A stretch of DNA of 64,000 nucleotides from Pelecanus crispus. Taxonomy: Eukaryota > Chordata > Aves > Pelecaniformes > Pelecanidae. Positions 1 through 55,200 of this stretch are shown here, in pieces. Positions within the stretch are counted from its first letter, which is position 1. The number at the start of each line of letters is the position of its first letter. A model generated the notes under the pieces. The model was not told where the DNA came from and did not search any database. It saw nothing but the letters and a program-made list of their open reading frames with translations. The DNA lies in contig NC_134652.1 in assembly GCF_030463565.1 (NCBI RefSeq), positions 5,669,897-5,733,896 on the forward strand, given 5' to 3'. Made by a program: the position numbers and the translations under genes.

Positions 1-115
1 ACAGATTTCAGTGACAGATGTCAGAAACGTAGAGCTATGGCTTTTCTTAAAGCCCAAAGTAGTCTTAGGATAAATATGGGAGAAATTTATTTGACTTTAC
101 CAGTCACATACTTAC

Positions 116-16730
<16,615 letters not shown>

Positions 16731-21630: not shown

Positions 21631-21803
21631 TCACATTATTTGGTATGGGATGGGTTCCTGCAGTTTTCGCTTCAAAAGAAATCCTCCCACAGTGAGAACA
21701 GCAGCTGCCAGCACCACGATGGTCACAGCCAGAGGAACATGGGAGCTGGCAGCAGGCGCTGAGCTCGGAGACTCCCCTTTTGCCTGGACGCCAGAGGACA
21801 GCT
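21631..21803 (-). CDS. DMBT1: Gene B transmembrane and cytoplasmic exon
   Basis: 173 nt from acceptor cacag to the TGA at 21631-21633, phase 1 in. A Ser/Ala-rich stalk ([10 protein letters not shown]) is followed by a hydrophobic helix ([20 protein letters not shown]) and a short tail [15 protein letters not shown]. Gives a type I membrane protein with about a 14-residue cytoplasmic end. Confidence 0.88.
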
Positions 21804-24800
21804 CTGTGCATAAAAGAAAGAGAGAGGCTTACATTTGTTTTCCTGAGCTAGTTAATCTCAAAGGTAATTAGACAACGAAAACTCAAATTAAAATGTTGCA
21901 ATCTGGATTCTGATCAGAAACCAAATCACTTTATTGCACACAGTTTCATAAATGATCCTGTGGTCATGCCAAACAAGTAAGGATTATGGCAAGAAATTAA
22001 AGAGCAACTAAGAATTTGCAACAATTACATTCTAAGACCATAAGATGCTGTTTTCTGATGATGGAAACAGCAGCTACAGGACACTGGGAAACAACATTTC
22101 CAAGGGGACCTACAGACTGGTTGCTAATAAATGAGAGACGTGCCTGTCAGGCATAGACAGCTTTGAAAAATTAATATAAATCCTGCAGGGAGATGAGTTA
22201 CATATCATCCCTCTTCCCACAGAACTGAATCAATTGCCATTTGACATGTGCAGAAGAAATAATGGGTCGAAACTACAATAGAAAGGAAATAGCTTGTAAA
22301 CATTATAAAACAATTTTATAAAAATTAATTTTTAAAAAAAAATCCCCATAAGAATTATAGCAGAGTTATGAATAAACCAGCACAGGCATATTTCAGAGCT
22401 GGATATCATGTCTGAACTGACACACAAACATACAGTAATATACAGTCTTAATTTACTTAAGTTATTTAAATTTACCAGCTTTCCTGTTCTCAGCGTGAGC
22501 TTCCTGAACTTGAATAGGTCCAATAACAACATTCACTTTTTCCTGGGAAGAACCTGCATTCCTCTTGAACCTACTAACACAGCCTTGATAGCAGCGGGAA
22601 GAGTAGTCGTTGTACCTGCACACCACCAGCTCACACTGCAGGTAAACTGATGGGTATCGATTAACAAATGAAAAAGCATTAAATGCAAACCGAGCAACAC
22701 TGCTGTGTGGTGAATAGTAAGTAGAGTAGGTAGGATCCTTAACACACCTGGAAAGATAGAAAATTAACAGATTAGCTATTGTGAATAGAAACACTATTAC
22801 ACTATCTCTGTGCAATGTGTTTTGAGTTTAAATATAAACCTGGAAGGTAAGTGTATGTAAGAGAACTCAAAAGGCTTTAAAAAAAGTGTGCTTTTAGCAA
22901 GAAGAGAAATTAAGAGACAAAAATAACTAGGAATGGCAGTGTTTTCTACCACAATAATGTATACAGTCCAGAAATTTCATAGGTCAACGAAGTTTGTGTA
23001 TACATGAATAGCTGAAAAATGACTAGTGGTTCCACTGGTTTCTGAGTTTCAGGTGAGGACCTGTTTTGCAAAGAGGCACCTGCAGGTTGTTGCAGAAGCA
23101 GAAAGGGCCCTTTCTACTCTGGAAGGACAAAACTAATTCTAATACATGTCTTTTTTTGGGCAATAAATGTGCTCTTTAGCCCTTTGATGTTTTTAGAGTA
23201 CCTTGCTTGAGGAACCTCAACACCTGATAGAGATCTCCAGATGTTTCACAGAGCAAGTTGCTAGATTAACTTTCCTGTCAATGAGTTTCACTTCCTGGCA
23301 ATTACTAGCCTTAGAAGTCAGCTAACTTAGATCCTAGTCATTCTGGTTTAATTTAACCACAGTGAAAAAAGATCAGAATAATTCACCCACAATTGTTACC
23401 CCAGAATATTCCAAAGTTGTCATTAATTATCTTTCTGTCTCAAAACAATTCCATTGTGCTCATCTCCCTAATAAAGACCCCAAGGCTTTTAAGTCCTCTC
23501 ATTCTTAGTTTATTTTATACTGCAGTGGTATCCCAACACACCTGATATTTATAGATGGATATTATTGATTTCATATTTGGTAAATACATTTGCTTTTGAC
23601 ACAGTTCCTTGTCATGTGAATAAAAATTAACTGGAAAATGATCAGAATCTATTTGCCCCATCTCCCTGGTGAGTGTTCTGCTCACAAAGGTAGACTGTCC
23701 TCCTGTGTCCTGCTTAATGATATGTGTTTTTATAGATGAAATAAAAAGAAACCCCAACAAAAGGAAAACCTTCTTAAGATTCACATAAAGTGTAAAAGGG
23801 AGGACATTCACCCAGCAGGCAGGAGGCACTGTGTCACTTCATTAGCCTGTCACAAGCCTGACTTCCAGCTTAGCAATAGGTTACTGCACTGCTAAGGTTA
23901 CTGATGTGAACACTCTCCCAGGAGGCAGAGAGATTCAAATCCCACCAACCATAGAAGGGAAATAAATTAGCATGAGCCTTTCATTCCTGGAACAAAATGC
24001 TTCATTCCTGGACACTTTTGTGCTTCTAGATCACTGTCCGCTTTGCATTCCTTACCAGAGGCCACAACTTTTCCTTTTCAAATCAAAAGGTGTATTTTGT
24101 ATAAAATTAAGAAAATGGTTTAGGTTTTTAGAATAGCAGGAAAAGGCTAAGGAATTTCCTTTCTCTTTGAACAGACTGTTTTGTATTCTACTTATGATGC
24201 TGCATGAAACTATTTGCAAAACTCTAATTCTGATGTACGGGAATGTAGAGCCATTGACATCCCTACGTTTAATGTATCTATTATTTCAGAGACAAATTCA
24301 GACCTCAGTTTCCACACTGCCTCCTTGAGTGAAATCTCAGTGCTTGACTGCAACTTCTGAATGGGATTTCTTTGTCATATTTTATTCAGGCTTTGCCAAA
24401 AAGTCTTTCTTAAAAGGGTATTTGTATTGGGAATTGCAACCGGTATACACTGGCCCTAAAGAACCTCTTTCATAAGTGAAGCTCTTTCAGAACTATGCAC
24501 AGAGATAGTTTTTAAATAATTCTTTAGAAATTTCTTACCCACTCCTGATCAGTTCATAGGTCAGTGTTCTAAAATTGCTAGGATCAGGTGAAGCCACGCA
24601 TGTGTCCACAAACACCACCAGATTTGGGTCAGAGCTGTGAAGAGAAGCTTGAAGGAACAAATTCTGATTCAGGTCAACGTAGTAGGGGAAGTCATGCACT
24701 GGCCACAGGAAAGATGAGGAATTGTAGAATGTCAAGTTCACATTGTATCTGCCATACTGGGTTTCACTGACGTTAATGATGTCATCAGCAATGTACGTTA

Positions 24801-27800
24801 CTTGCACCCAGGTGTTCTGGAGCATTTTGCAGCTGATGTGCACGTGAAGGTCCTTTTGCCTCTTGATGATGTAACCAGAAGCAGGCACTTTTATCACATT
24901 GGAGTAGGTGATCGTTTCATTGTTGCCCTATTTGACACATTAGATAAGTACAAAATTATCACATGTAGTCATGTTCACAACCTGTACTTTAAATTTCTGC
25001 ATGTGCCAGGTCCTAGTATTAGTCAGAAAGAACATGTCATACTCAAGGTGCAAGCATCCTGGATGGGATTGTTCACTTAACTCTCTCCTATACTTTGTTC
25101 TCTAGAACATCACTCTGAAATAAATACAGGGATTACCTAAAGCCTGGAAGGATAAGTAGGAACGTTTAACAGATCTTAGCCTCCACAAACACATGCTGCT
25201 TCTCTGTGTTTTGAATACCTATGGGCTACAACACCCTTTGAGACTCATGACAATTTTCCAAATATTTATTCAGTTTCCATGCCTGGACTTGGAGAGCTCT
25301 CTAAAATATGTTGACACCAACCTGTCTACGTGTACCACAGCCGTTGTATGGAATGTTGAATACAACCTCAGTTGATGTAATTGTTGGTCTACAATAAGAG
25401 TCAGACAAGCTGATGTTCCACACCGAGTAGCCCCGTGACTGGAAATACTGTCTGTCTACAACTGCGCGCATATAGGTTGGCAAGCACGTAAGGGCTAGGG
25501 AAGAAAATATGAATTATTAGTGATTTCAGGTACTTGATAATGCTTGCATGTTACAACTTCAACAAATGCAATAGCTGCTACCGTTTAGGGGAGAGAATTC
25601 ATAAGCCAAACCACTTATTTTTACACTTTAGGTTTAGATATGACTAAGCAATAGTCTCTGACAAACTTCAGCTGACCTTCAGTTACTCTCCTGACAAAAG
25701 TATGTAGTTTACAATAGGCTTTTGCTGAGACCTGGAGCCTGTATCACCACTCACACAAAAATGCTAAGAAGTGGGAGTTTTTCCTGAATAAGAATCCAAA
25801 AGCTATTGTGGAAGGTGTAGAGATAAACGTGCACACTGGCTTGCAGAAACACTACTTGGCTGGGAGGGGATCCTGAGTCCATCTCCATGACGGTTCACTG
25901 AGTCCGTGACATGAGCAGCAATGATCCCAAGGAGAGTTTAGCCTTTGGTAGAGAGAGATACGTGATGACAGGGACCTACTGGCAACACACAGCTTCTTCA
26001 AAGCCATTTACAAAGACAACAGAGCCAGATGCAATGGCCATTGTTTGTGCCTGGGGAGGCTGTGATTAGATAAACTTTCCCACCGGGACTGCAGGACAAT
26101 ACTGGAACAGGTCACCCAGAGAAGTAGTGGCTTTGAAGATTTCATCCTTTGAATGATTCTAGAGCCTCAGCTAGACAAATTCATTATGGACCTGACCTAT
26201 TGGTGTTGCCAATAGCTCTGCTTTGAATAGTTGGAGTAGGAAGCCTCCAAAGGTCCTTTCTAACCAATATTTTTATGTTTCTATGAAAATATGTCCGCAA
26301 AGGTAGAAAAAATATATACGAATAATGATGTGATAAGAAGAAATATGAATTTAGACTGGCCATCATAGAAAACACCTAAAAGCAATTAATTTGATACTTT
26401 TTTTAAAATGAAAAAGTAATTATTGTCCGAAAGTGATCGGTCAATAACCAGTTAAGAAATTCAAGTAGGAATGTAATCCATGTGGGATTTCTTCAACAAT
26501 ATTAACAAGTATTATTTAGCAAATAAGATCAGGGTATAAAAGTTTCTGAGCAAAGAAAACATTACAAACAGAATGGAGACTTACTGGTGTTCTGGTCTGC
26601 TGGAAAGGACTGATACTCAGCATGAAACCCTCTACTGGAATATATGGAGTCACTGTGAAATCTGACAGTCATAAAGTTTGAGGATGATGTGTACGTGAGA
26701 TCAGAACTAGAACAAATTCTTCCAAGCAGAGGAGAAGTATTGGGTGGCCCATCATAGATCTCAATATAGTCATTCTGGCATCCACCTTGCAACCTGAGGA
26801 AGAAACATGACTATATAATACGATGCATCTAGAAAACTTTGGGTTTTAAGTGCTGAACAAACAATAAACTAAGATATTGCACTGACACAATTCCCGTGTA
26901 ATATTTATAATTCACTTATAGACATGAGAAATCTGCTTGGGAACTGTGGTTGTAGTTGAGATTTGGGACCCATTTATTACCCAAGCAGGAAGTGGTTTAC
27001 TTACTGAATACTTCCAAATGTGAGCATAATGCGGAAATTGTTTGTTACTTGTATTTGCCACAAACAATCTGTATTATCTGGATAACTCAAAGGATAAGAA
27101 GGACTCTGAATTGTTCCAGAGGAATTAAAAAGGAAGCCACCACAAACATATTTTCTAGCTGAAAAAAAAAAAAAAAAACCCAAACCAGACAGACAATAAG
27201 GTATAGATGTGATTCATTTAGATTTACTTCTGATGGAATGAAAATACATTTTATGTATCCAAGCCATAGCAAAAGGAGGTTAAATCTCCAGAGAAACTGA
27301 ATGGTTGTACTTTTCTCACTCAGGCTATAAGTATCTCTTCAGGGAACTCTGACTCTCCCCTTGCCATTTTGCATTTGGTAGGCTTAAGGTAAACATATGT
27401 AAGAGAGAAAGCAAGAGGTGCTGCCAAAATAACATAAAATCTAAAGAAGAAGGAAAATATTTCCACAAAATTACCACAATCTGAAATCCACACCCAGAGA
27501 CAGAATCAGACAAACACGGGAGAAGTATGTAGGCTTTACAAAGTTAGAACAAATAATAAATTTTCTGAAAAATATTACACTGCACAAATGAGAAAAGCCC
27601 AACCTATAAAATGGTAACTACTACACCTCTAAAGTAACACATCAGAAAGATGAAAAAAACAGACAAACCTGGAGTAGTTGATAGTGGAGTGGAAACAGTG
27701 GTCGTGGTGGTGGCATCTGTTAGGGGAGGAAGAGAACGAAGCAAGTGAGGACCCTGCGGACAAAGGAGCACGACCAGGTTTTCTCCCAGCACTGGGGATG

Positions 27801-30800
27801 TTGGTGCCCCCCCATGACGCGGGTGATGGAGGGCTTGAGGGGTCTCAGTAGGGTGGTCTTCCATGGCAAGAGCAACAAAACTCACAATCTCTGAACTCGT
27901 CTCCAACACATACCTCATTGTGGCCAACAAGGGCCACTTTTGGAAAGCAGGCTGGTGTTTAGGAAGGAAAAGCAATGGTACCTGAGCACACAACACCAGC
28001 ATCTTCATGGTGGCCACAGTTGTGGGTGCCCCAGCCACGGCTGCTGCAGTGAAAGAGGGAGGACTCATTCCCTGTGCACTGCACATCGTCCAGGTAGATA
28101 TTGCCAGTGCCTTGTCCAAAGTAGGCACTTGATGGTGCAGAAACAGCAACGCCGCATCCCAGCTGCCTGCACACGACCTCGGCATCGTTCAGGTCCCAGT
28201 TGTCATCACAGACAGTGCCCCGGCTCCCGTAGCTGTAAATCTCTACACGCCCCTCGCACCGGTTCCTGCCGTTCACCAGGCTCAGGGAGGCACCTTGGGA
28301 AGGAGGAGAGAGGGAAAACATGGCAAAACCCCTCTAGCACGCAGGCACCTTCTCTCGCCGCGAGCATTGGCAATGCTCTACAAGTTTCAGGCCACCAGGA
28401 CTGTCAGCCTCTGCTTATTTCGGCCGCGTGTTTCCCTGGCTCTGCTCTCCCATGGAGAAGACCAAACCCCACCCTGTGAGCCTCTACTGCTACCGCCAAC
28501 AGTAGCATGCAGAAAAACCATGAGAAATTCAGACCCACCTGGAGGAACGGATGTCGTGTAGCTGGCTGTGGTCGTGGTGGTGGCATCTGTTAGGGGAGGA
28601 AGAGAACGAAGCAAGTGAGGACCCTGCGGACAAAGGAGCACGACCAGGTTTTCTCCCAGCACTGGGGATGTTGGTGCCCCCCCATGACGCGGGTGATGGA
28701 GGGCTTGAGGGGTCTCAGTAGGGTGGTCTTCCATGGCAAGAGCAACAAAACTCACAATCTCTGAACTCGTCTCCAACACATACCTCATTGTGGCCAACAA
28801 GGGCCACTTTTGGAAAGCAGGCTGGTGTTTAGGAAGGAAAAGCAATGGTACCTGAGCACACAACACCAGCATCTTCATGGTGGCCACAGTTGTGGGCGCC
28901 CCAGCCACGGCTGCTGCAGTGAAAGAGGGAGGACTCATTCCCTGTGCACTGCACATCGTCCAGGTAGATATTGCCAGTGCCTTGTCCAAAGTAGGCACTT
29001 GATGGTGCAGAAACAGCAACGCCGCATCCCAGCTGCCTGCACACGACCTCGGCATCGTTCAGGTCCCAGTTGTCATCACAGACAGTGCCCCGGCTCCCGT
29101 AGCTGTAAATCTCTACACGCCCCTCGCACCGGTTCCTGCCGTTCACCAGGCTCAGGGAGGCACCTTGGGAAGGAGGAGAGAGGGAAAACATGGCAAAACC
29201 CCTCTAGCACGCAGGCACCTTCTCTCGCCGCGAGCATTGGCAATGCTCTACAAGTTTCAGGCCACCAGGACTGTCAGCCTCTGCTTATTTCGGCCGCGTG
29301 TTTCCCTGGCTCTGCTCTCCCATGGAGAAGACCAAACCCCACCCTGTGAGCCTCTACTGCTACCGCCAACAGTAGCATGCAGAAAAACCATGAGAAATTC
29401 AGACCCACCTGGAGGAACGGATGTCGTGTAGCTGGCTGTGGTCGTGGTGGTGGCATCTGTTAGGGGAGGAAGAGAACGAAGCAAGTGAGGACCCTGCGGA
29501 CAAAGGAGCACGACCAGGTTTTCTCCCAGCACTGGGGATGTTGGTGCCCCCCCATGACACGGGTGATGGAGGGCTTGAGGGGTCTCAGTAGGGTGGTCTT
29601 CCATGGCAAGAGCAACAAAACTCACAATCTCTGAACTCGTCTCCAACACATACCTCATTGTGGCCAACAAGGGCCACTTTTGGAAAGCAGGCTGGTGTTT
29701 AGGAAGGAAAAGCAATGGTACCTGAGCACACAACACCAGCATCTTCATGGTGGCCACAGTTGTGGGTGCCCCAGCCACGGCTGCTGCAGTGAAAGAGGGA
29801 GGACTCAATCCCTGTGCACTGCACATCGTCCAGGTAGATATTGCCAGTGCCTTGTCCAAAGTAGGCACTTGATGGTGCAGAAACAGCAACGCCGCATCCC
29901 AGCTGCCTGCACACGACCTCGGCATCGTTCAGGTCCCAGTTGTCATCACAGACAGTGCCCCGGCTCCCGTAGCTGTAAATCTCTACACGCCCCTCGCACC
30001 GGTTCCTGCCGTTCACCAGGCTCAGGGAGGCACCTTGGGAAGGAGGAGAGAGGGAAAACATGGCAAAACCCCTCTAGCACGCAGGCACCTTCTCTCGCCG
30101 CGAGCATTGGCAATGCTCTACAAGTTTCAGGCCACCAGGACTGTCAGCCTCTGCTTATTTCGGCCGCGTGTTTCCCTGGCTCTGCTCTCCCATGGAGAAG
30201 ACCAAACCCCACCCTGTGAGCCTCTACTGCTACCGCCAACAGTAGCATGCAGAAAAACCATGAGAAATTCAGACCCACCTGGAGGAACGGATGTCGTGTA
30301 GCTGGCTGTGGTCGTGGTGGTGGCATCTGTTAGGGGAGGAAGAGAACGAAGCAAGTGAGGACCCTGCGGACAAAGGAGCACGACCAGGTTTTCTCCCAGC
30401 ACTGGGGATGTTGGTGCCCCCCCATGACGCGGGTGATGGAGGGCTTGAGGGGTCTCAGTAGGGTGGTCTTCCATGGCAAGAGCAACAAAACTCACAATCT
30501 CTGAACTCGTCTCCAACACATACCTCATTGTGGCCAACAAGGGCCACTTTTGGAAAGCAGGCTGGTGTTTAGGAAGGAAAAGCAATGGTACCTGAGCACA
30601 CAACACCAGCATCTTCATGGTGGCCACAGTTGTGGGTGCCCCAGCCACGGTTGCTGCAGTGAAAGAGGGAGGACTCAATCCCTGTGCACTGCACATCGTC
30701 CAGGTAGATATTGCCAGTGCCTTGTCCAAAGTAGGCACTTGATGGTGCAGAAACAGCAACGCCGCATCCCAGCTGCCTGCACACAACCTCGGCATCGTTC

Positions 30801-33800
30801 AGGTCCCAGTTGTCATCACAGACAGTGCCCCGGCTCCCGTAGCTGTAAATCTCTACACGCCCCTCGCACCGGTTCCTGCCGTTCACCAGGCTCAGGGAGG
30901 CACCTTGGGAAGGAGGAGAGAGGGAAAACATGGCAAAACCCCTCTAGCACGCAGGCACCTTCTCTCGCCGCGAGCATTGGCAATGCTCTACAAGTTTCAG
31001 GCCACCAGGACTGTCAGCCTCTGCTTATTTCGGCCGCGTGTTTCCCTGGCTCTGCTCTCCCATGGAGAAGACCAAACCCCACCCTGTGAGCCTCTACTGC
31101 TACCGCCAACAGTAGCATGCAGAAAAACCATGAGAAATTCAGACCCACCTGGAGGAACGGATGTCGTGTAGCTGGCTGTGGTCGTGGTGGTGGCATCTGT
31201 TAGGGGAGGAAGAGAACGAAGCAAGTGAGGACCCTGCGGACAAAGGAGCACGACCAGGTTTTCTCCCAGCACTGGGGATGTTGGTGCCCCCCCATGACGC
31301 GGGTGATGGAGGGCTTGAGGGGTCTCAGTAGGGTGGTCTTCCATGGCAAGAGCAACAAAACTCACAATCTCTGAACTCGTCTCCAACACATACCTCATTG
31401 TGGCCAACAAGGGCCACTTTTGGAAAGCAGGCTGGTGTTTAGGAAGGAAAAGCAATGGTACCTGAGCACACAACACCAGCATCTTCATGGTGGCCACAGT
31501 TGTGGGCGCCCCAGCCACGGCTGCTGCAGTGAAAGAGGGAGGACTCATTCCCTGTGCACTGCACATCGTCCAGGTAGATATTGCCAGTGCCTTGTCCAAA
31601 GTAGGCACTTGATGGTGCAGAAACAGCAACGCCGCATCCCAGCTGCCTGCACACGACCTCGGCATCGTTCAGGTCCCAGTTGTCATCACAGACAGTGCCC
31701 CGGCTCCCGTAGCTGTAAATCTCTACACGCCCCTCGCACCGGTTCCTGCCGTTCACCAGGCTCAGGGAGGCACCTTGGGAAGGAGGAGAGAGGGAAAACA
31801 TGGCAAAACCCCTCTAGCACGCAGGCACCTTCTCTCGCCGCGAGCATTGGCAATGCTCTACAAGTTTCAGGCCACCAGGACTGTCAGCCTCTGCTTATTT
31901 CGGCCGCGTGTTTCCCTGGCTCTGCTCTCCCATGGAGAAGACCAAACCCCACCCTGTGAGCCTCTACTGCTACCGCCAACAGTAGCATGCAGAAAAACCA
32001 TGAGAAATTCAGACCCACCTGGAGGAACGGATGTCGTGTAGCTGGCTGTGGTCGTGGTGGTGGCATCTGTTAGGGGAGGAAGAGAAAGAAGCAAGTGAGG
32101 ACCCTGCGGACAAAGGAGCACGACCAGGTTTTCTCCCAGCACTGGGGATGTTGGTGCCCCCCCATGACGCGGGTGATGGAGGGCTTGAGGGGTCTCAGTA
32201 GGGTGGTCTTCCATGGCAAGAGCAACAAAACTCACAATCTCTGAACTCGTCTCCAACACATACCTCATTGTGGCCAACAAGGGCCACTTTTGGAAAGCAG
32301 GCTGGTGTTTAGGAAGGAAAAGCAATGGTACCTGAGCACACAACACCAGCATCTTCATGGTGGCCACAGTTGTGGGTGCCCCAGCCACGGTTGCTGCAGT
32401 GAAAGAGGGAGGACTCAATCCCTGTGCACTGCACATCGTCCAGGTAGATATTGCCAATGCCTTGTCCAAAGTAGGCACTTGATGGTGCAGAAACAGCAAC
32501 GCCGCATCCCAGCTGCCTGCACACAACCTCGGCATCGTTCAGGTCCCAGTTGTCATCACAGACAGTGCCCCGGCTCCCGTAGCTGTAAATCTCTACACGC
32601 CCCTCGCACCGGTTCCTGCCGTTCACCAGGCTCAGGGAGGCACCTTGGGAAGGAGGAGAGAGGGAAAACATGGCAAAACCCCTCTAGCACGCAGGCACCT
32701 TCTCTCGCCGCGAGCATTGGCAATGCTCTACAAGTTTCAGGCCACCAGGACTGTCAGCCTCTGCTTATTTCGGCCGCGTGTTTCCCTGGCTCTGCTCTCC
32801 CATGGAGAAGACCAAACCCCACCCTGTGAGCCTCTACTGCTACCGCCAACAGTAGCATGCAGAAAAACCATGAGAAATTCAGACCCACCTGGAGGAACGG
32901 ATGTCGTGTAGCTGGCTGTGGTCGTGGTGGTGGCATCTGTTAGGGGAGGAAGAGAACGAAGCAAGTGAGGACCCTGCGGACAAAGGAGCACGACCAGGTT
33001 TTCTCCCAGCACTGGGGATGTTGGTGCCCCCCCATGACGCGGGTGATGGAGGGCTTGAGGGGTCTCAGTAGGGTGGTCTTCCATGGCAAGAGCAACAAAA
33101 CTCACAATCTCTGAACTCGTCTCCAACACATACCTCATTGTGGCCAACAAGGGCCACTTTTGGAAAGCAGGCTGGTGTTTAGGAAGGAAAAGCAATGGTA
33201 CCTGAGCACACAACACCAGCATCTTCATGGTGGCCACAGTTGTGGGTGCCCCAGCCACGGTTGCTGCAGTGAAAGAGGGAGGACTCAATCCCTGTGCACT
33301 GCACATCGTCCAGGTAGATATTGCCAGTGCCTTGTCCAAAGTAGGCACTTGATGGTGCAGAAACAGCAACGCCGCATCCCAGCTGCCTGCACACGACCTC
33401 GGCATCGTTCAGGTCCCAGTTGTCATCACAGACAGTGCCCCGGCTCCCGTAGCTGTAAATCTCTACACGCCCCTCGCACCGGTTCCTGCCGTTCACCAGG
33501 CTCAGGGAGGCACCTTGGGAAGGAGGAGAGAGGGAAAACATGGCAAAACCCCTCTAGCACGCAGGCACCTTCTCTCGCCGCGAGCATTGGCAATGCTCTA
33601 CAAGTTTCAGGCCACCAGGACTGTCAGCCTCTGCTTATTTCGGCCGCGTGTTTCCCTGGCTCTGCTCTCCCATGGAGAAGACCAAACCCCACCCTGTGAG
33701 CCTCTACTGCTACCGCCAACAGTAGCATGCAGAAAAACCATGAGAAATTCAGACCCACCTGGAGGAACGGATGTCGTGTAGCTGGCTGTGGTCGTGGTGG

Positions 33801-36800
33801 TGGCATCTGTTAGGGGAGGAAGAGAACGAAGCAAGTGAGGACCCTGCGGACAAAGGAGCACGACCAGGTTTTCTCCCAGCACTGGGGATGTTGGTGCCCC
33901 CCCATGACGCGGGTGATGGAGGGCTTGAGGGGTCTCAGTAGGGTGGTCTTCCATGGCAAGAGCAACAAAACTCACAATCTCTGAACTCGTCTCCAACACA
34001 TACCTCATTGTGGCCAACAAGGGCCACTTTTGGAAAGCAGGCTGGTGTTTAGGAAGGAAAAGCAATGGTACCTGAGCACACAACACCAGCATCTTCATGG
34101 TGGCCACAGTTGTGGGTGCCCCAGCCACGGCTGCTGCAGTGAAAGAGGGAGGACTCAATCCCTGTGCACTGCACATCGTCCAGGTAGATATTGCCAGTGC
34201 CTTGTCCAAAGTAGGCACTTGATGGTGCAGAAACAGCAACGCCGCATCCCAGCTGCCTGCACACGACCTCGGCATCGTTCAGGTCCCAGTTGTCATCACA
34301 GACAGTGCCCCGGCTCCCGTAGCTGTAAATCTCTACACGCCCCTCGCACCGGTTCCTGCCGTTCACCAGGCTCAGGGAGGCACCTTGGGAAGGAGGAGAG
34401 AGGGAAAACATGGCAAAACCCCTCTAGCACGCAGGCACCTTCTCTCGCCACGAGCATTGGCAATGCTCTACAAGTTTCAGGCCACCAGGACTGTCAGCCT
34501 CTGCTTATTTCGGCCGCGTGTTTCCCTGGCTCTGCTCTCCCATGGAGAAGACCAAACCCCACCCTGTGAGCCTCTACTGCTACCGCCAACAGTAGCATGC
34601 AGAAAAACCATGAGAAATTCAGACCCACCTGGAGGAACGGATGTCGTGTAGCTGGCTGTGGTCGTGGTGGTGGCATCTGTTAGGGGAGGAAGAGAACGAA
34701 GCAAGTGAGGACCCTGCGGACAAAGGAGCACGACCAGGTTTTCTCCCAGCACTGGGGATGTTGGTGCCCCCCCATGACGCGGGTGATGGAGGGCTTGAGG
34801 GGTCTCAGTAGGGTGGTCTTCCATGGCAAGAGCAACAAAACTCACAATCTCTGAACTCGTCTCCAACACATACCTCATTGTGGCCAACAAGGGCCACTTT
34901 TGGAAAGCAGGCTGGTGTTTAGGAAGGAAAAGCAATGGTACCTGAGCACACAACACCAGCATCTTCATGGTGGCCACAGTTGTGGGTGCCCCAGCCACGG
35001 TTGCTGCAGTGAAAGAGGGAGGACTCAATCCCTGTGCACTGCACATCGTCCAGGTAGATATTGCCAGTGCCTTGTCCAAAGTAGGCACTTGATGGTGCAG
35101 AAACAGCAACGCCGCATCCCAGCTGCCTGCACACGACCTCGGCATCGTTCAGGTCCCAGTTGTCATCACAGACAGTGCCCCGGCTCCCGTAGCTGTAAAT
35201 CTCTACACGCCCCTCGCACCGGTTCCTGCCGTTCACCAGGCTCAGGGAGGCACCTTGGGAAGGAGGAGAGAGGGAAAACATGGCAAAACCCCTCTAGCAC
35301 GCAGGCACCTTCTCTCGCCGCGAGCATTGGCAATGCTCTACAAGTTTCAGGCCACCAGGACTGTCAGCCTCTGCTTATTTCGGCCGCGTGTTTCCCTGGC
35401 TCTGCTCTCCCATGGAGAAGACCAAACCCCACCCTGTGAGCCTCTACTGCTACCGCCAACAGTAGCATGCAGAAAAACCATGAGAAATTCAGACCCACCT
35501 GGAGGAACGGATGCAGAAGATCTCTCTCTGCTCATGGTGGTGGCATCTGTTAAGGGAGAAAGAGAAAGAAGCTGTGTATTTCTCAAGCCTTTTTTATTTT
35601 CAGTATCACACACAAAATACTTGGTAATTCCCGCACGTTCAGAAAGGGACTTTATACAATGAGACAGATATCAGACTTTAATGTAAAATGAACAGCAAAC
35701 AGCAATCACTATATAAACTTCTCCTATACTTCCAGGCTAGGTAATGTAAACTCTATTTGGCTTCATGATTAAAATATATATTCTTGTAGTAGGGGAATCT
35801 TTTAGAAAGCCAGAGTAACTTTCAGTAAATAATGGTTTGTGCATCGTTCAAAATTGCACAGCTTGATTTAAAACAACCCCCCCAATGGTCCCTTTAACCC
35901 TCCCCAACTGAAGTGCTTTTCTTTAAGAAGTGATGTATAAAGCCACAGGTTTGAGTCACACTGTTATGTTTATATAACATGTAGTTTATTCAAATCATCC
36001 CTCATCTGAATAATACTCTTTAATTCTTTGTGAGTCAGGCTGCCTGCAAAATTTTCAAAATCTGGTTTGCTTTTGGTGTTACTTTTTGGGCTGCTTTATT
36101 CTATTATTTTATTTTTCTAAATGTCTGTTATTCTGATTTCCTTGGCTTAGTTTTTCTTTCTCTGTTTTCTGTTGTTATAATTCAAGCATTTTGTACTGCC
36201 TTTTTGAAAGCAGTGGGCAAAATAAGCAACATGCTCTATATCCTTCATATCCCCACGGATATGATGGATGTTGTTTTCTTATTTATAGCTGCAAAGAACA
36301 GAGTACAGACAGGTGTCCTAGGAAGAAGGGACTCCCAGCAGGAGCATAACACTTCAGATCTCTTCTCTGAAGGAGGAGTCATAGTTAAGCATTTTTTTTT
36401 TAATGCCTTGCAAGTGCTTGTGCCTGAATTGAAGCAGGGAAGTCACCTTGCCAAGGCAAAGCGAGAGGCTGGCAGGCATGATACAACTCAAGAGGTGTTT
36501 GCCAGGAATAGTAAATCCAAGAAGTCATCCCTGTAAAATATTGATAGTATTCAGAAAGTCCTCAGCGATACTAAATACTGGTTTCTGAGAAAATCCAACA
36601 TTGTTCTGATTTGCATGTTTACACGTGCATGTGCAGACTGGATTGTTACAGTCTCCAGGTTTTTATTCCATGTGCATGAAATTCTCAAGGGTGCAACTGT
36701 GAATAAAATGCACACCTCTGGGACTTCGTGATACCATACAGGATAGCAACTGTGTCTTACTATTGTGCTTCCATTAAATTATATAAATTTAAATAAGTAT

Positions 36801-37315
36801 TGGGTGGGTCTGCGTGCATCTGCAAGGCTGAAGTCTTTTAAGGCATATATGCATCGCAGGCAAAGAAACTATATTCCCTCTTAATTCCATACTGAAAACC
36901 ACAGATCTATAGGAACAGTTTTTCAGTAGTATTTTCATGGTAGTATTTTTTATTTATTTGGTTTCAACTATGCTACAAGACACTACTGCAAAACAGTTAG
37001 AGCAATATTAATTTCATTGCACTAAATTTACTTCAACACAAATAACAGTTAATCACCATATCGGTTCATTCATATTTTTAATAAGACAACATGATACTAT
37101 CTAATTTCTGTCTTTCTTCTAATCTTTGCACAAAGTTGATTATACTAGTATGTGAGTTACATGTATGGAACCAGTGTAGAGGAGTAAGACATCCCCTTTT
37201 TCCTACCTTTTTTTGAAGAAAATTATTTAAAGATTTTAAGTTGTTTACCTGAGGTGGCATCCAGGAGTGCTGTATTTAAGAAAAATAGCCACAGCAAGTT
37301 CTTGGTGGTACCCAT
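21631..37315 (-). CDS. DMBT1: DMBT1-like gene B (9 SRCR, CUB, ZP, transmembrane)
   Basis: Complete gene of 27 exons on the minus strand. Exons sum to 4725 nt, exactly 1575 codons with the stop, which argues that the model is right and the frame intact. Order: signal peptide, Thr-rich linker, then SRCR-linker nine times, CUB (two exons), ZP (three exons), last exon with membrane helix and short basic tail. Family role: apical or secreted scavenger-type glycoprotein in epithelial defence and differentiation; the ZP part polymerises after cleavage at the RFKR site, and the SRCR arm binds microbial or host ligands. The SRCRs and linkers come from an 870-bp tandem unit and are nearly identical. 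The TATA box is 37 bases before the ATG. True copy number may differ between individuals or assemblies. Confidence 0.92.
22476..22747 (-). CDS. DMBT1: Gene B ZP domain, third exon (ZP-C, furin site)
   Basis: 272 nt, phase 2 to 1, acceptor ttccag, donor gtaaat. Encodes [26 protein letters not shown] and RFKR, a furin-type site upstream of the stalk. Confidence 0.9.
22748..24538 (-). other. Gene B intron within ZP
   Basis: About 1.8 kb of AT-rich intron with no recognised exon or repeat. Confidence 0.6.
24539..24927 (-). CDS. DMBT1: Gene B ZP domain, second exon
   Basis: 389 nt, phase 0 to 2. Encodes [13 protein letters not shown] through [17 protein letters not shown]; several N-linked sequons (NVSE, NLTF, NSSS). 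Confidence 0.92.
25322..25494 (-). CDS. DMBT1: Gene B ZP domain, first exon
   Basis: 173 nt, phase 1 to 0. Encodes [20 protein letters not shown] and [13 protein letters not shown]; donor gttggt is weaker than in the paralogues. Confidence 0.9.
25495..26584 (-). other. Gene B intron between CUB and ZP
   Basis: About 1.1 kb. Its only recognised content is an old CR1 3' fragment at about 26060-26286. Confidence 0.6.
26060..26286 (+). mobile_element. Old CR1 LINE 3' fragment
   Basis: Degenerate match to the CR1 3' end: ggaacaggtcacccagagaag, cctccaaaggtcctttctaac and a terminal ttctatga. Strongly diverged, so older than the CR1 copies at 38-44 kb. Confidence 0.55.
26585..26793 (-). CDS. DMBT1: Gene B CUB domain, second exon
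   Basis: 209 nt, phase 2 to 1. Encodes [28 protein letters not shown] and [20 protein letters not shown]. Confidence 0.92.
27005..27158 (-). CDS. DMBT1: Gene B CUB domain, first exon
   Basis: 154 nt, phase 1 to 2. Acceptor has an unbroken run of about 17 T before cag. Encodes [20 protein letters not shown] and [11 protein letters not shown]. Confidence 0.92.
27669..27716 (-). CDS. DMBT1: Gene B linker (SID) 10, before CUB
   Basis: 48 nt, phase 1-1, acceptor aacag, donor gtttgt. Encodes [16 protein letters not shown]: the first half equals the array linkers, the second half is unique, so the repeat edge falls inside this exon. Confidence 0.85.
27982..28293 (-). CDS. DMBT1: Gene B SRCR 9 (array unit 1)
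   Basis: 312 nt, phase 1-1, acceptor cccaag, donor gtacca. [20 protein letters not shown] start, eight cysteines. Variant: GTHN, TGNES (N-glycosylation sequon), CSSR. Its upstream linker is 28539-28586 ([16 protein letters not shown]). Confidence 0.94.
28539..28586 (-). CDS. DMBT1: Gene B array linker exon (type copy of eight)
   Basis: 48 nt, phase 1-1, acceptor taacag, donor gtgggt, encoding [16 protein letters not shown]. Seven further copies lie every 870 bp at 29409, 30279, 31149, 32019, 32889, 33759 and 34629 (starts). Five consecutive Thr make it a likely O-glycan cluster between each pair of SRCRs. Confidence 0.88.
28852..29163 (-). CDS. DMBT1: Gene B SRCR 8 (array unit 2)
   Basis: Variant: GAHN, TGNES, CSSR; same as unit 5. 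Upstream linker exon 29409-29456. Confidence 0.94.
29722..30033 (-). CDS. DMBT1: Gene B SRCR 7 (array unit 3)
   Basis: Variant: GTHN, TGIES (sequon absent), CSSR. Upstream linker exon 30279-30326. A private base difference (gacac for gacgc) lies in the intron at about 29558. Confidence 0.94.
30592..30903 (-). CDS. DMBT1: Gene B SRCR 6 (array unit 4)
   Basis: Variant: GTHN, TGIES, CSNR, plus a silent change at about 30785 (GTC to GTT in EVVC) shared only with unit 6. Upstream linker exon 31149-31196. Confidence 0.94.
31462..31773 (-). CDS. DMBT1: Gene B SRCR 5 (array unit 5)
   Basis: Variant: GAHN, TGNES, CSSR, matching unit 2. Upstream linker exon 32019-32066. Confidence 0.94.
32332..32643 (-). 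CDS. DMBT1: Gene B SRCR 4 (array unit 6)
   Basis: Variant as unit 4 (TGIES, CSNR, silent EVVC change) plus a private T to I (GIGNIYLDD). Upstream linker exon 32889-32936. Confidence 0.94.
33202..33513 (-). CDS. DMBT1: Gene B SRCR 3 (array unit 7)
   Basis: Variant: GTHN, TGIES, CSNR without the silent EVVC change. Upstream linker exon 33759-33806. Confidence 0.94.
34072..34383 (-). CDS. DMBT1: Gene B SRCR 2 (array unit 8)
   Basis: Variant: GTHN, TGIES, CSSR, like unit 3. Upstream linker exon 34629-34676. Confidence 0.94.
34942..35253 (-). CDS. DMBT1: Gene B SRCR 1 (array unit 9)
   Basis: First SRCR of the protein. Variant: GTHN, TGIES, CSNR. Preceded by the unique first linker at 35499-35546. 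Confidence 0.94.
35499..35546 (-). CDS. DMBT1: Gene B linker (SID) 1, unique
   Basis: 48 nt, phase 1-1. Encodes [16 protein letters not shown]; only its 3' half matches the array linkers. Joins the signal-peptide exon to SRCR 1. Confidence 0.85.
35547..37248 (-). other. Gene B intron 1
   Basis: About 1.7 kb, AT-rich. A 168-codon plus-strand open frame at 36030-36536 has no recognisable domain and is not accepted as a gene. Confidence 0.6.
37249..37315 (-). CDS. DMBT1: Gene B signal-peptide exon with start codon
   Basis: 67 nt, donor gtaaac, phase 1. Encodes [20 protein letters not shown] then TSG/D: clear signal peptide. Same exon length and phase as gene C. Confidence 0.87.
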
Positions 37316-49010: not shown

Positions 49011-49016
49011 TTTATT
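49011..49016 (-). promoter_or_regulatory. AATAAA overlapping the gene A stop codon
   Basis: Minus strand reads TTT AAA TAA A: the hexamer AATAAA contains the stop. If used, cleavage would fall 10-30 bases downstream. Weaker candidate than the one at 48917. Confidence 0.3.
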
Positions 49017-49297
49017 TAAAACCACATGCATTCCTATTCTCAGCACCATCTTGCTTAAGCTGTATTGGCCCAGCAACAACAGTCACACTTTCTTGGCCAG
49101 AGCTCGCCTCTCTCTTGGACCTAGTAATACAACCTTGGTAGCATCTGGAAGAATAGTCATAGGCCCTGCACACCACTAGTTCACACTGCAGGTAAACCAA
49201 TGGATTGTTATGAATAAACTGGAAGGCATTGAATTTAAACCGGACTATGTGTCTGTAGGGTGAATAATATGTAGAATAGGTGGAATCTTGAACACAC
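49012..49297 (-). CDS. DMBT1: Gene A ZP domain, third exon (ZP-C) to stop
   Basis: Phase 2 in, acceptor tttttag. Encodes [34 protein letters not shown], then [10 protein letters not shown] and a stop at 49012-49014. The homologous gene B donor gtaaat is gtttta here. Confidence 0.85.
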
Positions 49298-52200
49298 CTA
49301 AAAAGAAACAAAAAAATCTCTCATCAATACATGCTGCCATCAGTCATTTACATGCAATATAACACGTAACGTGAAAAGTGATTTTAAAACATGATGAAAA
49401 TTGTTCAGAAACCTGCAATTAGGAAAAGCAAGATGCCCTTCTTTGGCAGCATTGAGCCACGTTACCTCCCTTCAGCCTGTCGTGTGTCTAGATACCTAGT
49501 GTTTGTACATTTTTCTGAAAGTGAATTAGCCTTACCTGAGATATGCCACTGTTACCTCTCTGATAAGAACAATCCATGGTAAACTGGCCATAGCTATTTA
49601 GTCTGTTTATAATTTTAAGCTGGGGGATGGTGTGTGTTACATTTTTGGTCAATCCAACCCCCTTCCCCCAATAAACCTCAATTGCCTATATCCATTAATT
49701 AGTTAGAAGCAGACATTAATGTATGCTGTATTCACACTATTCCATTAAACAAAAATGAAAAAAGAAAAAAAAGATACAGGAGTTCAAAGGCAGTTCTTTC
49801 AGTAATTGTAACGCATAAGAGCTTACCCGTTCCTGATTATATCATAGGTTACCGTCGTAAAATTGTGGGGAGTGGGAGATGCCACACATGTGTCCACAAA
49901 CAACATGAGGTTTGAATCAGAGCTGTGCAGGTAAGCTTCAAGGAACAAATTCTGGTTGATATCAACGCAGTATGGCAACTCATTCACTGGCCGTGAGAAG
50001 GATGCAGAATGATAAAGTGTAAGGTTTACATCATATCTGCTATACTGAGTTTCATTGACGTCAAAATTGTCCTCTGCAACATACATTATTTCTGCCCATG
50101 TGTTCTGGAGCATTTTGCAGTTGATATGCAAGTAAAGGTTTTTATTTCTTGTGATTACAGTACCAGAAGACGATCCTCTAATAAGGTTGGAATAGATTAT
50201 TGTATTGTTGTTTCCCTGTTTGGCATATAAAATAAAATGCAGAATTAATTCATGTAGTCAGGTTTCCTATTATGCATTCTAAACTTTACTGTACCCTTAC
50301 AGCAATGTGCACAGTAACTGCATTATTTCCCAGAAAGTCTGCTGTGGAGAAGTCTGAGCCTAGTAATTTCTGTTCTCAAGATAAGAATCTGTAACCTACA
50401 GGTAATATTCAGTGACTACAGTGTGGACCTAGAAAACTACTACCTGCAGACATAACTAATTAAATACAAACTATACAATTCTTTGAACATCAAATGTCTG
50501 AAGGATCTGGTCCAGCACAGTTTTTAAGTTCAAATCTGACCTAAACCACTATTGGTCATATTTAGTAAAGGCTTTGAGACCTTTAAATCACTATACTCAG
50601 CTTGGGACCTTGAAAATGCCAAGTGTTTGCTTCTTCCCACACTTTATTCCTTACAAGATCAGCAGCAGATGCAGGAAATATGAGTGTTAATAAACCTTAT
50701 CCCTCAGGAGAGGGAGAGGCAATCCATAATCAACAGGACACTTCCAGTCCCTGCAGACCTCGGTATAGCTTTCAATTTGTGCTGGTTTTCAAAACTAGTT
50801 CTTTGGTTTGAATTTTTACACACTCACAATATTTGCATATTCTGTTGAAACGTTTAAAGTCATACCTCTCTCACCGTGCCGCAGCGAGTGTATGGTATAT
50901 CAAATATAACGTAGTCTGATGTAATGTTGGGTTTGCAATAGGGGTCATTCAAGGAGAGCTTCCAGGCGGAGTAGCCTTGTGACTGGAGGTAGTACCTGCT
51001 CACAACTGCACGCATGTAGTCTGGCAAACACAACAGTGCTAGCAGATGGCAAAGAAAATACATTACAAGCTCATTGAAGTGACTGAAAAGGTTATACTTA
51101 AATAAACCATATCTTTTGCAGAAGTAGCTGATATTGCAGAAGGAGTTCAGAATCCAAATCATATACTTGCATCTCTATGAAATATTACAGACTTAATTTA
51201 AAATAACATGAAATGGGTGATTCATTGAAGTGGTACAACAAGATTAATAATCAGTGAATTAGCAGATAATTGAGAAGGAGGTTTCTGCTTTAAACATTAA
51301 CTTACTAGTGCTCTGATCTGCTGGAGTGGAATAATAGTCAGCCTGAAACCCTCTGTATGTGTATCGAGAGTTACTGTAAAATCGGACAGTCAGCAGGTTT
51401 GAGGAAGATGTGTATGTGCGAAAATAACCAGAACAAAATTTCCCAAGGAGAGGAGAGGTACGGAGTGGCCCATCATAGACTTCCACATAGTCAGACAGGC
51501 ATCTGCCACCTTCCATCCTGGGGAGCAAACATGACTATTTAGTGAAATGCTTAATTTTAATTTTTTTAATATTTCTTTTTCCTTTTTGTTTTTTTTTTTT
51601 AACTCAGATTACCTGTTCATAGCAAAAGAGTACATTTTAGTGATATGACTATCAAGTCTTTGGAACAGAAATTACAGCCCCCAGTTTCTGTCTCATTAGA
51701 TGCCAGCCACATTATTGACTAAATAAACAAAAATGAATAATTTTTTCATCTCAGACATAGTAAAAGCTTTGAAAAACATCCTTGAAATCAAGCAGCTACC
51801 AGCTTACTAAGTCAAAGGTGTCGATCCCATACATCATCTTCCCAAGTAAGAAATTTTTACTTACTGAACATCTCTAAACGTGAGTGTGACACGAAAGTTA
51901 TTCTTTGCTTCTATTTCCCAAACACAGTTGGCATTGTTTGGATAATTTCTGGGGTAAAATGGACTCTGTAATGTCCCAGATGGAGAGGAAAGCAAGCCGC
52001 CACAAGAATAATCCTCTGCAGAGAAAAATATGAGAAGAAAAATATACATATACACTATTTAAGGTTGCTTTTGGAACACGTCTTTGTAGAATTTATAAGT
52101 CTAAAATTTAGTGGCAGTGACTTCTACGGGCTTCAATGGTCTTTCTATTAGGTACATATATCATCTGAATGCAGATTAGGAGATGCTAACATACTGAATA

Positions 52201-55200
52201 GCTTTTATAATGCTGATCTTCAGTGTCTGCACTAGCAGGATACAAATATTTGTCACAGAACTGCGCAATCATTGAGGCTGGACATCTGGAGGTCAGCTGT
52301 TCCTTGAAAGAGGAAAAGTCACAGCTGAGCCTGGTTCACCTCTATTACAATTTCTAATGACCAAAGGGAAGGAAAAAAAAAGACCAAAATTATTTTGTTT
52401 CCAAAAAAGAATGCTGACAAGTATCCGATTCATAAACATGAAGACTTTTTGTCACAGTCAAAGAACTGTATGAAATTTATATATAGATCAGTTGCAGCCT
52501 AATCAAATAATAGGGGAATTAAGATCTAAGAAAGTTTAGAAGTAAAATAAAGTCATGGATTTCTAGGATACTTTTCAGTACAAGCTCAAACTACTCCAAG
52601 AAAAGAGAAATGTGTAAATGGACATCATCTTTTGAATTATATTCCAAATTAGAAAAAAATACACATTTACTTCTTTTAACCTAAGGAATGAACAAGAGAC
52701 CTACTGAGGTCTAAGAGATTTTCATTTTTTATTTTCAGCTTCTAGCAAACTGAAAAAAAACCTTCTCTCACTAACTGACCTAACATTTACTATGTGAACA
52801 ATTAAACTTTCAAACTATGCACTAACCTCAAAGGATGTGCTTGAACAAACAGCTGAAATAGGAATTAGTGGAATAATACTACTTATGAAGTGGTTGAAAA
52901 CAATGCTGCCTAAGCACTTGTGAAATTACTGCTCGGCTGCAAAGAAATAAGTAACTACACTGAGTGTGAAATCACCTGCATTGTAATTCTGTGATAATTT
53001 GAGGCATCGTTCTTTTGGTATTACATGAAGAGGAATATGCCCCAAAACTATGGGCAGTAACATTTCTCTCATTGGCTACAACCATGACCGAGCAATTCCT
53101 CTGCCTGCACTTGCACACACAGAGCCCCAGCACAAACACATGAGCCTTGCCATCTGGGAACCCCACCTTAGATGCTCCATATATGTTCTGCCTGAAGATC
53201 AGGACACACTTTTGTACTGTGAGGGTGACTGAGCACAGGCCCAGGTTGCCCACAGAGCTTGTGGACTCTCCATCCTTGGAGACAGTCAAGAACCATCTGG
53301 ACACTGTCTTGGGCAGCCAGCTCTAGGTGATCCAGCTTTAGCCAGGGAGTAGGACCAGATGACCTCCAGAGGTCCCTTCCAACCTCTGCCATCCTGTGAT
53401 TCTGTGATCCATAACCAGGGGCAGGAGCTAATCAGACCCCTCAACCCCTCCTGACATACCTGTGGTCGATGACATGGTGGACATCGAGCTGGAGCTATAT
53501 GGCACTGCAGGGAGAGAGCAGCAGGTGAGCGAGCAGTGTTTTGCCTAGCAGGAACAACCTGCTTGGAGTCACCCCTCTCCAAAGGGCTCCCCGGACACTG
53601 AAACCCAGCACCCACAGTCACCACCTGGATCCGTGGCAGGTCCCTGTGTGGCTGCACCTTAAAGCCTTCCCCCTCCTTCCCACCAGCCCAGAGTGCAGCT
53701 CACTTTCTACGTGTACAATAGCTCCCATCAGCAGGACCTCGCATGCCAATGGAGGAACATCTTTGTTAATCATCAGGATGATGGGACAGGGTGGACCCTC
53801 GGCAAGTTTGCTGATGACACCAAACTGGGAGGAGTGGCTGATCCGCCAGAGAGTCCTGCTGACATCCAGAGGAACCTCGACAGGCTGGAGAAATGGGCGA
53901 ACAGGAACCTCATGCAGTTCAACAAGGTGAATTGCCAAGTCCTGCTCCTGGGTAAGAAGAACCCCAAGCACCAGTAAGCATCTGGGCCACTCGGCTGGGA
54001 AGCAGCTCTCCAGAAAAGGCCCTGGGGGTCCTGGTGGTCACCAAGTTGAACATGAGCCAGCAATGGTTTGCACAGGGGGGTGGGACTAGATGACCTCCAG
54101 AAGTTGCTTCCAACTTCAGCCATCATGTGACTCTCTGATCTGAGCAAGGGCAAGAGATAACCAGACCCCTCGACCCCTCCAGACCTACCTGTGGTCGATG
54201 ACACGGGCGGAGTCAAGCTGGAGCTACCTGGCGCTGCAGGGAGAGAGCAGCAGGTGAGGGAGCAGCACTGTACTTAAGATGAAGAGCCCGCTGGGAGTCA
54301 CCCCTCCCCAAAGGCAACCCTGGGAGACATAAACCCGAGACCCACAGCAAGCACTGTAACCTGGCAGGACCGAATGAGACCAATCTTGACCATCCTGTGA
54401 TTCTGTGATCCTGAGCAGGGGCAGGAGATAACCAGACCCCTCAAACCCTCCAGGCCTTACCTAAGGTCAACAACAGAGGGAAGTTGAGCTGGAGCTACCT
54501 GGAGCTGCAGGCAGAGAGCAGCGGCTGCTCTCATTCCTCAACAACTCCTCAGCTGCAAAAAGGAGTTCAGTGCACTGCATGTGAAGCCATTGACCTTCTT
54601 TACTTTGGGAAAAGAAGTAGTAACCAGGAGCAGCAGGAACATTGGCCTCTGCAGCTTGCAGCAATGAGTGTGCCATGAACAGGCAACTCCTCTTCCTGCA
54701 GTAAAGGCTGGAAAACTCAACGATGGTTCAGCGGCAGCACTGGTGGAGGTGGAGAAAGCCCTGTCCCTGCCCATCAGGCAAAGAAACAGCATTCTGGCAG
54801 CAGTCTCGTGCCAGTCCTGTCCACAAAGATGCCCCCGAACCAAAATGCCTGTCAGTGGGGCCAATGGGTCTGGATGCCCACAGGTGTCAGGAGCCATCAG
54901 AAGGCCCTTAAGGAAGAGTTTGTGCTTCTGTCCTGGCAAAGAGCAAAGGACAGCTGCGATCTTACCTGTGGTGCTGCTGAAAGTGGAAATCGAGTAGTAG
55001 TAGGCCTGGAAACCCCTCTGGGTGACACTGCTGTCACTGCGAAACAGGATGGTCAGCTGGTGCCTGGATGACCTGAAGATGTGATGGTCATTCCAGCAAA
55101 CAGTCCCGAGGAGCGGGGCCTGGGGGGACCCGCCGTCGTACACCTCGATGGTGTCGTACCAGCAGTTGTTGCCTTCCAGCCTGCAGAGGGAGAGGAGGGT

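Follow-up and report, generated by a model that had tools for sequence, protein, structure and literature searches.

A coding array of nine near-identical SRCR-linker units in a DMBT1-like gene of Pelecanus crispus

How can a gene gain and lose whole domains of its protein without disturbing its reading frame? This question is raised by a 64,000-nucleotide stretch of the Pelecanus crispus genome (assembly GCF_030463565.1, contig NC_134652.1, positions 5,669,897 to 5,733,896), hereafter the window, in which positions are counted from the first nucleotide. The window contains three DMBT1-like genes, A, B and C, arranged in tandem and in one orientation, and the middle one, gene B, carries nine near-identical copies of an SRCR exon and a linker exon. 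We interpret gene B as a DMBT1-like (SALSA/gp340-type) pattern-recognition glycoprotein gene with an in-frame coding SRCR-linker tandem repeat, in which whole units turn over by unequal crossing-over and the phase 1-1 exons keep such events safe for the frame. To these two statements jointly we assign a probability of about 0.82.

The 870-bp array of gene B

Self-identity at a lag of 870 was unbroken over approximately 7.8 kb, and nine head-to-tail units, each exactly 870 bp, aligned without gaps. Together with an open gene model, this bears out a previous sequence-only reading of the window, which had proposed a nine-unit array of this period inside one gene. One unit consists of a 312-bp SRCR exon, a 48-bp Thr-rich linker exon, and introns of 265 and 245 bp. 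In total, the array holds nine SRCR exons and ten linker exons, eight of the latter being identical and two being edge versions. An AG acceptor, a GT donor and phase 1-1 were found in 19 of 19 array exons. The array is frame-safe because both exons are symmetric (phase 1-1) and their lengths (312 and 48 bp) are multiples of three. The unit had indeed been described as frame-safe, but partly on the grounds that 870 equals 290 x 3; since introns are removed, divisibility of the whole unit by three is irrelevant to the frame.

As had been claimed, the array edges fall within linker exons at both ends: repeat identity starts at 27698 within linker exon 27669-27716 and stops at 35513 within linker exon 35499-35546. 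On the gene's 5' side, weaker homology continues for approximately 65 bp, to about 35578, and on its 3' side homology is also raised at 27640-27679 (26 of 40 positions). The array sits between single-copy exons of gene B itself. It is not in the list made by Tandem Repeats Finder, for which the longest period was 500. Nine gapless copies that are more than 99% identical across 7.8 kb need no chance test. The predicted model of gene B has 26 exons, is open throughout, and encodes 1574 amino acids on the minus strand in the order signal peptide, nine SRCR domains, one CUB domain, ZP domain and hydrophobic helix. Its features, in the direction of the gene, are as follows.

27698..35513, minus strand: extent of the 870-bp repeat homology, from lag-870 self-identity and gapless alignment
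37249..37315, minus strand: exon 1, with start codon and signal peptide (peptide recognized by eye); phase 1 end, GT donor
35499..35546, minus strand: linker exon at the gene's 5' array edge, 48 bp, partly like the inner linkers
34942..35253, minus strand: SRCR exon 1, 312 bp
34629..34676, minus strand: inner linker exon, 48 bp, first of eight identical copies; the other seven, also on the minus strand, start at 33759, 32889, 32019, 31149, 30279, 29409 and 28539
34072..34383, minus strand: SRCR exon 2
33202..33513, minus strand: SRCR exon 3
32332..32643, minus strand: SRCR exon 4, in the most diverged unit, with T62I
31462..31773, minus strand: SRCR exon 5, with NES sequon
30592..30903, minus strand: SRCR exon 6
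29722..30033, minus strand: SRCR exon 7
28852..29163, minus strand: SRCR exon 8, with NES sequon
27982..28293, minus strand: SRCR exon 9, with NES sequon; PF00530 match, E 1.4e-35
27669..27716, minus strand: linker exon at the gene's 3' array edge, 48 bp
27005..27158, minus strand: CUB exon 1
26585..26793, minus strand: CUB exon 2
25322..25494, minus strand: ZP-N exon
24539..24927, minus strand: ZP exon with the start of ZP-C
22476..22747, minus strand: ZP exon with the end of ZP-C
21631..21803, minus strand: last exon, with hydrophobic helix (recognized by eye), short tail and stop

In a genome-wide SRCR census, PF00530 matched nine of the nine SRCR exons, each domain corresponding to one exon, and each of these exons encodes eight Cys residues. 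The SRCR domains alternate with short Ser/Thr-rich linkers. The C-terminal CUB and ZP domains were supported by Pfam scans of pieces (PF00431, PF23344 and PF00100), and a Pfam scan of the last exon gave no match for the terminal helix. Furthermore, eight cation-site residues were kept in all nine SRCR units. Their numbering differs by a constant 990 from that of the residues given for SRCR8 of human DMBT1 (D1019, D1020, D1023, D1026, D1058, D1059, N1081 and E1086; PMC7043408).

Variation between the units

Differences between units were counted over 855 columns; columns 856-870 of unit 9 (35513-35527), at or beyond the repeat edge, were excluded. Unit pairs showed 0-6 differences (mean approximately 0.3%), and all units were at least 99.3% alike. 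Eight columns were variable: five in the SRCR exon (four replacements and one silent change), none in the linker exon, and three in the introns. Each variable intron column deviated in a single unit, and the four variants common to several units were all exonic, spanning 149 bp. The replacements affect SRCR positions 62, 75, 84 and 89. None of these is a cation-site residue, and no loss of such a residue through the variable positions was found in the nine units. Position 75 is the N of the NES glycosylation sequon in three of nine units and I (IES) in the other six.

Exons and introns had been described as equally conserved. This held insofar as the introns were no less alike, but the trend was toward more variable exons, with a nucleotide diversity (pi) of 0.0057 in exons and 0.0013 in introns (4.4-fold; exact one-sided p 0.045). 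Intron divergence far above exon divergence was not seen, the introns holding three of the eight variable columns and having the lower pi. An old array kept by purifying selection on exons is ruled out, because such selection would not leave introns at least as alike as the exons. The proposal that the units are very recent or homogenized agreed with the domain matches, the splice phases, the comparison of exon and intron divergence, and a position near HTRA1 (see below). Under bird mutation rates that we assume, the mean age of a unit pair would be about 0.6-1.3 million years, a figure not used as evidence.

With private variants ignored, the unit types along the plus strand are a, b, c, d', b, d', d, c, d. 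Over the 855 columns, unit 2 is identical to unit 5 and unit 7 to unit 9, leaving seven unit types among nine. Recurrence of types at non-neighboring places would follow from the copying of multi-unit blocks, although this is a reading of the order and not a test. We propose that unequal crossing-over, whether between sister arrays or between homologous ones, would add and remove units and make them alike, that these events may sometimes move blocks of several units, and that gene conversion possibly assists homogenization. Each whole-unit event would add or remove 120 residues and leave the frame intact.

Paralogous genes and alternative explanations

Genes A and C, which flank gene B, offer a comparison. 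Their main features are as follows.

4505..10984, minus strand: gene A array, with a unit length of 1323-1623 bp; it comprises five SRCR exons of 312 bp and four linker exons of 42 bp
13593..13902, minus strand: first SRCR exon of gene A, outside its array, ends approximate
90..3064, minus strand: CUB and ZP exon region of gene A; Pfam scans covered its pieces 2264-2587 and 1023-1466
49015..57046, minus strand: gene C region with SRCR, CUB, CUB and ZP, in that order

The gene C region held one SRCR match and no near-identical SRCR array. In gene A, the four complete units were 98.7-99.7% alike. The two pairs of SRCR exons from alternate units differed at 0-1 positions and the four remaining pairs at 4-5, a pattern that suggests two-unit blocks. 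SRCR exon identity was at least 98.4% within the gene B array and at least 96.8% within the gene A array, but 66% on average between the arrays. In line with this, an SRCR exon tree grouped the exons by array, with support of 99/99 for gene B and 100/99 for the five array exons of gene A. The first SRCR of gene A fell outside the gene A array group, so that the six gene A exons need two changes; the rows for this exon and for gene C had approximate ends. The ZP exon stretches of the three genes were 76-77% alike. Since SRCR exons are alike within but not between arrays, each array was homogenized within its gene after the genes had separated. In addition, the guanine-plus-cytosine (GC) content was 54-55% in the gene B array introns and 61-62% in the non-SRCR part of the gene A units, compared with 34-43% in seven nearby stretches outside the arrays. 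The raised values are what GC-biased conversion would produce in a repeat that recombines.

The excess of exonic variants brings to mind diversifying selection on the SRCR exons of different units. Four of the five exon variants are replacements, all four shared variants are exonic, and pi is higher in exons, as described above. However, there are eight variable columns in all, and five exonic ones among them are unremarkable in a plain count (p 0.29). Moreover, the ratio of replacement to silent variants, 4:1, is near that of the respective sites, 238:71. Exon-directed divergence between units is therefore a weak hint, and we hold this explanation to be unlikely. We judge as similarly improbable that gene conversion alone has kept an old array of constant length alike. 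It would likewise yield identity of exons and introns as well as raised GC. However, the paralogous arrays differ in unit number (nine, five, and none found in gene C), which requires a change in copy number at some time. Furthermore, a four-gamete test over the eight variable columns found no pair with all four combinations, although with the shared sites lying within 149 bp it had little power. By this low-power test, duplication without conversion is sufficient for the unit variants.

Several observations nevertheless weigh against whole-unit turnover or limit what can be said of it. The lack of a four-gamete conflict means that conversion between units, as a helper in homogenization, went undetected. 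Outside the SRCR exon of gene A, one pair alone stands out (A1-A3, 4 differences; others, 10-16), and A2-A4 (12) is no closer than A1-A2 (10) or A1-A4 (12). A similarly high GC content (50-61%) was measured at 53-58 kb in the gene C region, where no near-identical array is present, and the array GC could equally well stem from a founder unit that was GC-rich to begin with. The gene model, its expression and its splicing are predictions from sequence, binding is predicted from the family, and the cation residues were placed by their spacing and not from an alignment with human DMBT1. Finally, the count of nine comes from one assembly, and polymorphism is a prediction. The true number might differ, nine being the product of collapse or expansion, because units more than 99% identical across 7.8 kb are difficult for assemblers, and the two identical unit pairs could also stem from assembly error. 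We consider such an artefact very unlikely. The nine units comprise seven types, with private and shared variants in differing combinations, and neither the 64-kb window nor 70 kb of its flanking sequence contains an N. The contig measures 43.8 Mb and is one of 310 in the 1.31-Gb assembly. When a 341-bp SRCR segment was taken from the unit, at least nine genome matches of 99-100% identity were obtained, all in the gene B array. The tenth match was the first SRCR of gene A with 72%, and no further copy above this value was present at other loci among the best 40 of 49 candidates. Besides, a wrong count would leave the array itself standing. Whole-unit turnover by unequal crossing-over thus remains our preferred explanation.

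Further observations concern the surroundings of these genes. A 6/18-bp minisatellite occurs at four places within the gene A array; it was rejected as a coding linker because it lies outside the linker exons. A Thr-rich, mucin-like open frame with 18-bp repeats is located at 11769-12076, between the first SRCR exon and the array of gene A. Downstream of gene A, SRCR fragments interrupted by stop codons, together with a ZP-like fragment (L013:4044-4244, L014:2777-3087 and L015:835-1107), may be the remnant of another copy. The interval between genes B and C holds a reverse transcriptase (RVT_1) of a long interspersed nuclear element, which we take to be CR1-like, at 40050-40430 on the minus strand. 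The GC-rich part of the gene C region contains repeats that are 79-81% alike (53345-53640, 54076-54368 and 55794-55997).

In the SRCR census of the pelican genome, the best 150 of 393 candidates included at least 77 on contig C29, at least 41 on C43, at least 15 on C10 (which carries genes A and B), at least 9 on C6, at least 5 on C12 and at least 3 on C1. Many of the C29 matches (about 1.25-2.81 Mb) agreed in score and frame length, the pattern that repeated amplification of a gene with several SRCR domains would leave. A search for related loci found no relative in viral contigs; in genome contigs it found four bacterial SRCR loci with 52-58% identity, which have no bearing on the question.

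Comparison with known DMBT1 genes and possible function

Frames that read as HTRA1 follow gene C on its own strand, at a distance of approximately 22-35 kb from its SRCR exon. For the exon at approximately 35 kb, the best match was HTRA1 in PDB (E 6e-36), with Trypsin_2 above the cut-off. A second HTRA1-like exon had a Trypsin_2 match just under the Pfam cut-off, and a third frame had no Pfam match. HTRA1 also adjoins human DMBT1 (PMC4946147); the cluster of genes A, B and C thus shares this neighborhood. Human DMBT1 (SALSA, gp340, salivary agglutinin) further resembles gene B in that SRCR domains alternating with short Ser/Thr-rich linkers are followed by CUB and ZP domains, and it contains a coding tandem repeat of variable number (PMC4851238, PMC9038570). 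Its variation in SRCR number, on which the previous reading had drawn, is documented with 7-20 SRCR domains per molecule and a mutation rate of 0.7-2.7% per generation for CNV1 (PMC4851238).

Differences were also apparent. For human DMBT1, a table row gives 42 kb, 2.9-kb units, 13 copies and more than 79%, figures that we interpret, without the column headings, as array length, unit, copies and identity (PMC2588610). Compared to this, the gene B array was correctly described as more uniform (at least 99.3% versus more than 79%), but its 0.87-kb unit is about a third as long as the human one of approximately 2.9 kb, and not about half. The human tail is CUB-SRCR-CUB-ZP, whereas gene B has one CUB, no SRCR match after the array, and a helix with a short tail. 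By this mark, gene B is not a one-to-one equivalent of human DMBT1. Moreover, three DMBT1-like genes lie in tandem here, unlike in human. In summary, the kind of array is known from human DMBT1; particular to this locus are its uniformity, the short unit, and the presence of two adjacent, separately homogenized arrays.

Among the literature matches listed, we found no account of a tandem SRCR array and its unit identity in a bird DMBT1 gene. Chicken likewise has a set of three, DMBT2, DMBT3 and DMBTL2, and in two of these DMBT-like genes SRCR, CUB and ZP domains occur together (PMC12032555). According to the same source, DMBTL2 reportedly has no CUB, whereas gene C has two; this comparison is by description, not by sequence. 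In duck, resequencing led to the call of a 3.6-kb duplication overlapping DMBT1, which is less frequent in one breed (PMC10759622). Its length is close to that of four gene B units, which may be coincidence; the passages of that paper do not tie it to SRCR exons.

Chicken DMBT1 and DMBT1-L (DMBT1-like protein) were found enriched on caecal bacteria (PMC5042506). In human, SRCR number goes with protein size, and a short isoform failed to bind an S. mutans strain (PMC9038570). Judging from the family, the product of gene B may be a microbe-binding agglutinin. Its array would multiply one calcium-dependent binding surface on O-glycosylatable stalks and may thereby act as a valency counter: unit number would determine how avidly repetitive microbial ligands are bound, which would agree with reports on the long and short forms of human DMBT1. 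The ZP domain and terminal helix would permit surface display, shedding or polymerization. More tentatively, the two adjacent paralogues might be rapidly turning over, frame-safe SRCR counters built from different units, in which avidity evolved in parallel through repeat number, and the sequon and the three other variable residues might mean that glycan shielding is tuned as well; we regard this as a speculative idea.

Because the gene B array measures 7.8 kb, single long reads could span it, which would allow units to be counted. In human DMBT1, SRCR number has been tied to microbe binding and to balancing selection, and the same question becomes askable in birds. With two separately homogenized arrays in a bird-type locus, one may ask whether repeat number responds to microbes, and whether it does so repeatedly.

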